Assembly (NCBI RefSeq): GCF_003439925.1
Contig: NZ_QQRR01000001.1
Coordinates: 186,001-250,000 of the forward strand
Direction: 5' to 3'
Length of the DNA: 64,000 nucleotides
From: Haloprofundus halophilus
GTDB taxonomy: Archaea > Halobacteriota > Halobacteria > Halobacteriales > Haloferacaceae
Part shown: positions 41,182-45,470 of the stretch, piece by piece
Position numbering within the stretch: position 1 is the first letter of the stretch
How the letters are laid out: each line of letters begins with the position of its first letter
Made by a program: the position numbers and the translations under genes
Notes under the pieces: model-generated
What the model saw: the letters and a program-made list of their open reading frames with translations, nothing else
Database searches by the model: none
What the model was told of the DNA's origin: nothing

Positions 41182-41195
41182 AAAATCCGGATTTT
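41182..41195. terminator. Perfect 14-bp palindrome between convergent genes
   Basis: AAAATCCGGATTTT is a perfect palindrome with A- and T-runs on either side, placed between the convergent ends of the methyltransferase (41144) and DUF368 (41195) genes. It could serve as a bidirectional terminator. Confidence 0.45.
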
Positions 41196-42178
41196 CAGTC
41201 GAGGTCGATGCCGGCGACCCGGTCGACGACGACGACCAGTCCACCGCCGACGAGCGCCGCGACGGCGAACGCGACGAGGACGTCCGTCGTCCACGACCCG
41301 CCGTGTTCGGCGAGGCTCGTCGACAGTTGCGAGATGGGTGCGCGGAGCGCGCCGAAGATGAGCGCGATGAGGAACGCGAACGTCGCCTCGCGGTGGTGTT
41401 CGAGCGCCCAGTCGACGGCGTGGGCGACGGTGAACAGGCCGATGAGTGCGCCCGAACAGAACGTGACGATGGTGACGAACGGACCGGCCAGCGCGTCGAG
41501 GGTGCCGCCATCGAGGAGGCCGAACACGCCGTCCCGGAACGTCGAGAGCGTGTCGGTCATGTAGAAGTACTGCCCGAGGATGAGCAGCAGCAGCGACCCC
41601 GAGACGCCGGGGAGAATCATCGCGCTGATGGCGACGGCTCCGGCGACGAACGTCACGACGGGGCTGTGTCCGAGCGCCGACTGCGCCTCGCCGGAGACGA
41701 CGAACGCGAGGGCGAAGCCGGCGACGGAGGCCGCGATTCGGCCGGGCGTGTCGACCGACACCTCCGTGACGAGCACGAGCGCCGACGCCGCGATGAGACC
41801 GAAGAAGAACCCGAACGTCGGGGCCGGAACGGTCTCGACGGCGACTTCGACGAGACCCGTGATAGTGACGATGGCCGTCATGATACCAAAGCCGAGCGTC
41901 ACGAGAAACGCGGCGTCCATCTCCCGCAGCGAGGCGAACGCGTCGCTGCTGTCGCCGGTGACGCCGCGGAGCACGCGGAGTACGTTGTCGACGTCGATGG
42001 CCGTCACCGCGTCGATGAGGCGCTTGTAGATGCCGGTGATGAGCGCGATGGTGCCGCCGGAGACGCCGGGCACCGCGTCGGCGGCACCCATACAGACGCC
42101 TCTGAGGTAGATGCCGAGCCACCCGCGTAGGCCTCCCGACACCGTGTTCACGTCCGAAACCGTCTCTCCGTCGGCCAT
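41195..42178 (-). CDS. DUF368 (PopT-type) polyprenyl-phosphate transporter
   Basis: Polytopic membrane protein of 327 residues in the DUF368 family. The diagnostic N-terminal block RGVCMGAADAVPGVSGGTIA is repeated in degenerate form as ISAMILPGVSGSLLLLILG in the second half, an internal inverted-repeat-like duplication. About eight or nine membrane helices are visible. Bacterial DUF368 (PopT) proteins are reported to return undecaprenyl phosphate from the outer to the inner face. The gene starts 4 bases after the end of aglB, so both are almost surely co-transcribed. I infer that it recycles dolichyl phosphate released by AglB. Confidence 0.88.
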   Translation of the reverse strand: MADGETVSDVNTVSGGLRGWLGIYLRGVCMGAADAVPGVSGGTIALITGIYKRLIDAVTAIDVDNVLRVLRGVTGDSSDAFASLREMDAAFLVTLGFGIMTAIVTITGLVEVAVETVPAPTFGFFFGLIAASALVLVTEVSVDTPGRIAASVAGFALAFVVSGEAQSALGHSPVVTFVAGAVAISAMILPGVSGSLLLLILGQYFYMTDTLSTFRDGVFGLLDGGTLDALAGPFVTIVTFCSGALIGLFTVAHAVDWALEHHREATFAFLIALIFGALRAPISQLSTSLAEHGGSWTTDVLVAFAVAALVGGGLVVVVDRVAGIDLD

Positions 42179-45100: not shown

Positions 45101-45470
45101 GCAGCGTCTTGGCGACGAGTTGGTCGCTCGGGCTACCGAGGCCGATGACCAGCGCGACGGTGGCGACGATCTGGTCGTACAGGGTCCCGAACTGTCCCTG
45201 ATAGGTGCCGTACGGAAAGTAAGTCCAGGGGTCGAACGGCATCGTGAAGGGCCAGTGTCTGACGGCGTATTCGACTTCGCGGAGGTGGTACCAGGCGTCG
45301 TTGCCCGAGAAGACGACGGTACCGTTCTCGATGTAGTTGCCGTAGCCCTGCAACCGGTAGTAGAGCATGACGGCAACCACACCCAGGAGGGCGGGGACGT
45401 GGTACCAGTCTTCGAGGCGGTCGAGGTAGGAGTTCTCAGTCTCCTCGACGCTCTCTGTTCGATGACTCAT
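42183..45470 (-). CDS. aglB: Dolichyl-phosphooligosaccharide-protein glycotransferase (oligosaccharyltransferase)
   Basis: STT3-family catalytic enzyme transferring a lipid-linked glycan to Asn in N-X-S/T sequons on the outer membrane face; 1095 residues. About 13 N-terminal membrane helices span residues 25-600. SGNDAWYHLREV (Asp58) is the first acidic external-loop motif. VSDHNGVEP is the second metal-site region. WWDYG lies at residues 646-650 and binds the acceptor Ser/Thr. A beta-rich extracellular domain follows, and a low-complexity tail (about 1015-1070) holds eight sequons. A TATA element sits 25-33 bases upstream. The DUF368 gene follows by 4 bases. Confidence 0.97.
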   Translation of the reverse strand: MSHRTESVEETENSYLDRLEDWYHVPALLGVVAVMLYYRLQGYGNYIENGTVVFSGNDAWYHLREVEYAVRHWPFTMPFDPWTYFPYGTYQGQFGTLYDQIVATVALVIGLGSPSDQLVAKTLLVAPAVFGALTAIPVYYIGKRLAGRFAGLFGAVILMLLPGSFLRRSLVGVSDHNGVEPLFMAVAVLAFMVAFTVAEREKPIWELVDARDRDALRSPLKWSALAGVALAMYMWVWPPGVLLVGIVGTFLVVKMVSDTVNGESPEPIAFVGAVSMGVAGLFMLLRIDTFEFSATQFSLIQPVLAFAVGAGSVFLAWLAREWESRDLSIALYPVAVGGAIVVSLGLMAVVLPDAFQQLTNNFNRILGFSAGARTRTISEAQPFLDPNTLSQFGTTATMQLLSEYGLAIFTGVAAATWMLAKPLLRGADPRKVGYVAGSVAVVGLLYLVPAVPKAVGGALGIDHALLGLVVVFGLIVGATLLTTYRAEHLLVVVWAAFLTAAAFTQLRFNYYLALVVVVMNAFFLGEVLGYLGLRKSIARATDDIEAYQVLAVATVIVLVLTPVLLVPLGGGQGAQTATAQQIGAANQPGAYTQWQGSLEWMANNTPAEGDYGGAGNADQFGYYDRFERPADGDYDYPEGAYGVMSWWDYGHWITMGAERIPNANPFQQGATAAANFLLAPSEERSEEVLASQSTEGNQTRYVMVDWQMVTPGEKFGAPTVFYDDEENISQSDFYQRVYAEGFRGSFFLKDQRYYDSTMVRLYEYHGSAMDPQPFVVDWEPTPAVNQQTGEEVTVPTPAGEGENATLLRTFDNMSAARDFVEEDGTAQVGGVGPYPEERVEAMEHYRLVKASESSATQSQSYFRQLLSTGQITGLNAQFLTQTPPQWVKTFERVPGATVEGSGAPANSEVRAAVQMEMTGNQTFTYVQYAETDADGDFELTLPYSTTGYDETGDEYTNVSVRATGPYYVSTQATENESGDSVVYDGTVDVSDAKVVGEDGSPATVELTESPVQDGGDDSGNETVGNGTVDNATGENPFGNESVEGESGNETGNSTSSNESTAGDDSENSTSLAASDATTARGAATALVTAPAAVWG
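42265..42423 (-). other. Sequon-rich low-complexity tail of AglB
   Basis: This part of aglB encodes a Gly/Asn/Glu/Ser/Thr-rich stretch with NET, NGT, NAT, NES, NET, NST, NES and NST, eight N-glycosylation sequons in about 50 residues, ahead of a hydrophobic C-terminal segment. Confidence 0.9.

Follow-up and report, generated by a model that had tools for sequence, protein, structure and literature searches.

The window analysed here (the whole stretch of 64,000 nucleotides from Haloprofundus halophilus) carries on its minus strand the aglB gene (positions 42183–45470), which encodes an archaeal oligosaccharyltransferase of 1095 amino acids, and directly behind it the popT gene (41195–42178), whose 327-residue product is a homologue of the DUF368/PF04018 polyprenyl-phosphate transporters. 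Both open reading frames are intact, with a TIGR04154 match in the first and a PF04018 match in the second, and the sequence read directly gives a gap of 4 bases (42179–42182) between the aglB stop codon and the popT ATG, which bears out the initial annotation of this DNA, where a DUF368 gene had been placed 4 bases past aglB. AglB scores 931.1 bits on the NCBIfam model TIGR04154 (cut-off 450) in a near full-length match and carries the sequence GNDAWYH at residue 56 and the catalytic WWDYG motif at residue 646, so that the curated threshold and the motif agree; it also matches Pfam STT3, AglB_core-like, and AglB_L1. A genome-wide search with PF04018 returned popT alone.

Upstream of aglB lies a gene for a Wzx/MATE-type polysaccharide flippase (45528–46991, minus strand; Pfam Polysacc_synt_3, 82 bits), the stop codon of which is found 57 bases before the aglB ATG on the same strand. 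This gene probably belongs to the same gene run as aglB and popT, and the encoded protein is a candidate for the outward flipper of the lipid-linked glycan in this genome. As phosphodiesterase-, sulfatase-, and glycosyltransferase-family genes follow beyond the flippase gene, the aglB-popT pair lies on the border of a region of surface-glycan genes. Four genes of the phosphodiesterase/sulfatase superfamily are placed amid the glycosylation genes at 46991–54510. Downstream of popT the positions 36178–38804 (minus strand) hold Dak2-domain and dihydroxyacetone-kinase-like genes, where the DhaM-, DhaL-, and DhaK-like calls were made by eye and Pfam confirms Dak2 only.

The PopT protein reaches 220.1 bits on Pfam PF04018 (cut-off 26; residues 30–283), and on the NCBIfam PopT equivalog models NF052563 and NF052564 it scores 87.0 and 181.6 bits, both under the 400-bit cut-off; therefore it is filed under the broad PF04018 family only. 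The PG[VI]SG motif, defined from our own alignment of 17 archaeal and bacterial sequences, is duplicated in the window protein (PGVSGG at residue 37 and PGVSGS at residue 190). Altogether 29 columns of this alignment are invariant, and P37, G38, S40, G41, T43, P190, G191, S193, and G194 are among them. The AlphaFold2 model was built on an alignment of 72 sequences, including the window protein and 71 of 80 fetched loci (L159 and L184 were left out because their frames are broken, and seven others because they were redundant, truncated, or of odd length); it is all-helical with 15 helices (pLDDT 90.8, pTM 0.85) and has helix breaks at both PG[VI]SG motifs. According to this model PopT is predicted to have a polytopic α-helical membrane fold, and the helix breaks suggest that it may be composed of two similar re-entrant halves. 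A sequence search of PDB chains with PopT revealed no relative at E up to 1, and Foldseek with the PopT model against the PDB returned no match (E up to 0.001); the best VIA-align result was a ZIP zinc transporter with Z 9.4 over 169 residues, a value that may reflect an arrangement common to all-helical models.

The spread of the pair was surveyed in 116 Halobacteria genomes, which were profile-searched with PF04018 and TIGR04154, and copies were considered linked when aglB lay upstream of popT on one strand within 4 kb. AglB was found in 116/116 genomes and PopT in 115/116, while a linked pair was present in 79 of the 116 genomes, representing 31/46 genera and 8/9 families (f1 40/44, f2 12/12, f3 8/23, f4 11/28, f5 0/1, f6 1/1, f7 3/3, f8 3/3, and f9 1/1 genomes), and 36 of the 115 PopT-positive genomes had no linked copy. 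Such recurrence on the same strand places the gene order beyond chance. The sole genome with AglB and without a PopT match (G020, family f5) contains two DedA-superfamily matches and is a draft in about 120 contigs, so that the absence is possibly an assembly gap. Among 18 named haloarchaeal loci from the collection scan the pair occurred in 11 (Haladaptatus salinisoli, two Halorubrum, Halolamina, Halostagnicola, Halorhabdus, Natrinema, and four metagenome bins); the loci without it belong to Halonotius, Halobellus (broken popT frame), Natronorubrum, Natrarchaeobius, two bins, and Haladaptatus pallidirubidus, which has a broken plasmid popT copy. In the latter (L150/L184) and in Halobellus rufus (L159) popT is split over two or three frames, which indicates either decayed copies or sequencing errors. 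Also, short open reading frames matching the C-terminal part of PopT were noticed about 1.5 kb from the intact popT in two genomes (L060:5308–5547 and L061:8737–9027 of G073 and G089) and represent a remnant or a partial duplicate.

Spacing between the aglB stop codon and the popT start was determined in 74 of the 79 linked pairs (5 were left out), taking as the start codon the candidate that gave the smallest gap of −30 or more, and the figures therefore lean short; with this choice 51/74 pairs fall between −16 and +6 bases and 72/74 have a gap of at most 152 bases. Such spacing supports an operon-like arrangement, as judged from sequence. The other two pairs contain at least one intervening gene: in G014 a UDP-glucose dehydrogenase gene lies between aglB and popT with a nucleotidyltransferase gene on the far side of aglB, and in G077 both of these genes lie between them. 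In Haloferax volcanii aglM presumably adjoins aglB. The AglM protein of this species is a UDP-glucose dehydrogenase and AglF is a glucose-1-phosphate uridyltransferase, according to a published account (PMC5867893), which supports the assignment of the intervening genes in the two identified split pairs to N-glycan precursor enzyme families (AglM, AglF).

A quick tree, calculated without bootstraps, included all 121 Halobacteria PopT copies and 28 copies from the rest of the phylum. The linked copies are distributed throughout the Halobacteria part and the branching broadly matches the families. Among the 42 unlinked copies, 37 group together in a single clade (SH-aLRT 99) and come from families f3, f4, and f8; the remaining five are dispersed, with one from f4, one from genus 8 of f1, and three from genus 3 of f1. 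Five genomes (G005, G024, G043, G090, and G106) possess a linked and an unlinked copy together. The simplest reading is that linked popT is ancestral in the Halobacteria sampled and that a second PopT displaced the linked gene in parts of two families. In two loci of the unlinked clade from family f4 (L105 and L111) popT is convergent with a glycosyltransferase-2-family gene, and a methyltransferase gene is located beyond it.

Long inheritance of the gene order raises the explanation that aglB and popT are simply two membrane-protein genes that were seldom separated and have no functional tie. We consider this unlikely, although several observations agree with it: the adjacency was lost in about four places on the tree with both genes kept, and other ancestral neighbours partly survive. 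The latter were surveyed in the 24 linked genera (of 31) for which long flanks were available, and there every other neighbour family is limited to at most 10 genera; the commonest is an FAD oxidoreductase with a BFD domain that looks like a glycerol-3-phosphate dehydrogenase (up to 10/24), and sulfatase- and glycosyltransferase-2-family proteins are likewise among the most recurrent neighbours. Because all 24 genera were chosen for having the pair, the fair comparison is between 31/46 genera for the pair and at most 10/24 for anything else. Thus, some gene-order inertia exists, to which the dihydroxyacetone-kinase-type genes downstream of popT in the window also point, and it may account for part of the conservation of the pair; nevertheless, abutting or overlapping genes in 51/74 measured cases, kept while the flanks changed, support the conclusion that the contact of aglB and popT outlasts inertia. 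Genes of the sulfatase family lie near the pair in as many as 9/24 linked genera. A conserved wzx-aglB-popT trio was also considered and rejected, as a homologue of the window flippase was present in 4/51 long-flank linked loci.

The archaeal survey covered the Halobacteriota phylum, Methanobacteriota, and Thermoplasmatota, with Thermoproteota, Asgard, and DPANN archaea outside its range. In the other genomes of the same phylum PopT was found in 28/163, and none of these 28 loci had an AglB match or a WWDYG protein in the flanks of up to 7 kb (five of them shortened by contig ends). In Methanobacteriota, some of which are methanogens with pseudomurein walls that also depend on polyprenyl carriers, PopT was detected in 124/149 and STT3 in 137/149 genomes, and no STT3-PopT linkage was seen among the matches listed when the two listings were compared by eye.

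In Thermoplasmatota PopT was detected in 25/145 and STT3 in 119/145 genomes, 15 genomes having both by an eye count; a PopT match was absent in 104/119 STT3-positive genomes and an STT3 match was absent in 10/25 PopT-positive ones. According to these data PopT is neither universal among AglB-bearing archaea nor confined to them. In 6 Thermoplasmatota genomes (also counted by eye) the genes for STT3, AMMECR1, dihydroorotase, and PopT follow in succession on one strand, where AMMECR1 was recognized by Pfam and dihydroorotase by eye. A wider tree was built from 37 of the 121 PopT copies of Halobacteria, the complete set of 28 from other members of the phylum, 28 of the 29 loci of Thermoplasmatota (a fragment was left out), 13 from Methanobacteriota, and 20 from bacteria (the last two groups picked as every third locus, with three named methanogen loci added). 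In it the PopT copies of the six STT3-near loci make up a clade distinct from that of the Halobacteria, and therefore this looser pairing arose separately. The housekeeping character of the intervening genes would suit an inherited order without functional tie, but the approach of STT3 and PopT in a second, independent lineage argues against it.

To our knowledge it is not settled how archaea bring dolichyl phosphate back to the cytoplasmic side following N-glycosylation, and no protein is named for this return in the literature searched, which left most subscription papers outside. Transfer from a monophosphate carrier releases dolichyl phosphate itself, and no phosphatase is required before the return. 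We favour, with a probability of about two in three (0.68), the reading that PopT, encoded in an ancestral unit with aglB, carries the dolichyl phosphate left by AglB back to the inner leaflet. This reading proceeds from what is directly established at the locus and in the survey: the two genes and the distance between them, how widespread and how old the pairing is, the PF04018 membership, and the motif conservation with bacteria. In the proposed scheme aglB and popT would form a two-gene unit derived from the ancestor of the Halobacteria sampled; AglB would transfer the glycan from dolichyl-phosphate-glycan to asparagine at the outer face of the membrane, which in monophosphate-carrier haloarchaea would leave dolichyl phosphate in the outer leaflet; PopT, the product of the next gene, would take it back to the inner leaflet, where glycosyltransferases would reload it. 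We infer here dolichyl phosphate as the substrate, the inward direction, co-transcription of the two genes, and AglB as the main source of the carrier. The evidence against includes the scores under both NCBIfam PopT equivalog cut-offs, the AglB lineages without PopT (G020 among them) and the PopT-positive Thermoplasmatota without an STT3 match, the 36 haloarchaeal genomes whose PopT is unlinked, the DedA-superfamily genes in every genome, and the partial inertia of gene order.

Published data agree with the return of dolichyl phosphate by PopT. Bacterial DUF368 and DedA proteins are described as returning undecaprenyl phosphate to the inner leaflet (PMC9876793, PMC12826051). The defect of a Vibrio cholerae vca0040 mutant in alkaline growth is reported to be complemented, at least in part, by HVO_RS12060, a homologue from H. 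volcanii, in a study that names dolichol phosphate translocation as a wider implication (Sit 2022, PMC9876793). In H. volcanii dolichol phosphate is the carrier on which the N-glycans are put together, while in Halobacterium salinarum a pyrophosphate carrier is also used for one glycan (PMC3871713); the pyrophosphate carrier would require a phosphatase before return.

The recycling suggested in the initial annotation is supported by the family membership, an ancient pairing retained in Halobacteria while the flanks changed, operon-like spacing, and the N-glycan precursor genes inside the two split pairs identified, and PopT is a putative recycler of dolichyl phosphate. Its extension to Archaea as a whole proved too wide, since direct adjacency was seen only in Halobacteria and most STT3-positive Thermoplasmatota have no PopT match, and the single transcript and matched stoichiometry that it derived from the adjacency went too far, the stoichiometry being an overreach: adjacency alone can establish neither, and other pathways besides AglB release dolichyl phosphate too. 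Restriction of the adjacency to one lineage had been named there as an argument against recycling, and this holds in part, direct adjacency being confined to one class; on the other side stand the age of the pairing and the separate, looser pairing in Thermoplasmatota. A more far-reaching proposal, in which PopT is a dedicated and possibly physically coupled partner of the archaeal oligosaccharyltransferase, haloarchaeal N-glycosylation possesses a carrier-return loop of its own, and the STT3-PopT pairing was assembled independently at least twice (in Halobacteria and in one Thermoplasmatota clade), is rather doubtful.

The opposite direction of transport, in which PopT moves dolichyl-phosphate-linked sugars outward and so supplies AglB instead of returning the empty carrier, is highly improbable. 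The scarcity of Wzx-like genes near the pair (4/51 loci) means that it often stands without an obvious outward flippase adjacent, but bacterial family members return undecaprenyl phosphate according to the sources cited above, the window already has a Wzx/MATE-type flippase gene ahead of aglB, and Agl15 and AglR are the proposed outward flippases of H. volcanii (PMC3871713).

The main rival to the return of the carrier by PopT is redundancy with DedA proteins: UptA-type members of this superfamily may be the main haloarchaeal dolichyl-phosphate flippases, PopT being conditional or accessory (for example at high pH or high sodium) and its link with aglB being of minor importance. DedA-superfamily (PF09335) matches were found in 116/116 Halobacteria genomes, and two VTT proteins of the window's genome gave sub-threshold matches to an NCBIfam model of UptA (83.6 and 58.5 bits against a cut-off of 250); in bacteria DedA and DUF368 overlap, with DUF368 conditional on pH and sodium (PMC9876793). 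Nonetheless, PopT is near-universal in Halobacteria, and COG0586 DedA genes are reported to be rarer in bacterial genomes encoding COG2035/DUF368 (PMC10127716), and this rival is considered somewhat unlikely. The presence of DedA-superfamily proteins in all 116 genomes makes PopT probably not the sole route. The idea that PopT is the only carrier flippase of the genome, the DedA hits being low-scoring, was rejected, as the low scorers resemble UptA.

Earlier publications already cover the DUF368 family, its bacterial function, and the finding that an archaeal homologue is active in a bacterial mutant. No earlier description of the aglB-popT pair or of how widely it occurs was found in the searched literature, again with most subscription papers outside; the gene association is therefore considered new and informative. 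The pairing suggests how haloarchaea bring back the used lipid carrier, and the position of popT behind aglB across most of the class singles out one named gene that can be deleted, a candidate from which a clear prediction follows and for which the genomes with both linked and unlinked PopT are natural comparisons. If the return of dolichyl phosphate by PopT is true, the transporters of bacterial cell-wall carriers would be tied to archaeal protein glycosylation.

Compared with known systems, the AglB of the window is an ordinary archaeosortase-A-system oligosaccharyltransferase (TIGR04154), and the novelty lies in the gene behind it. The UptA/DedA (PF09335) undecaprenyl-phosphate flippases have the same proposed task in bacteria and occur in the same genomes, but their Pfam family differs from that of PopT and none of them adjoins the window aglB. 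The nearest known system is DUF368/PopT (PF04018, COG2035; V. cholerae VCA0040, Staphylococcus aureus SAOUHSC_00846, and H. volcanii HVO_RS12060), to which the window protein is related as a member of the same Pfam family, these three proteins themselves being outside the alignment. With bacterial DUF368 proteins it shares both PG[VI]SG motifs and the predicted polytopic helical build, and its identity to the four bacterial sequences aligned is 30–36%; these four contain an extra loop with a WPWK/WPWR motif, which the archaeal sequences lack. The carrier is undecaprenyl phosphate in the bacterial DUF368 systems and dolichyl phosphate in archaea, and in the window, unlike those systems, popT sits directly behind aglB.
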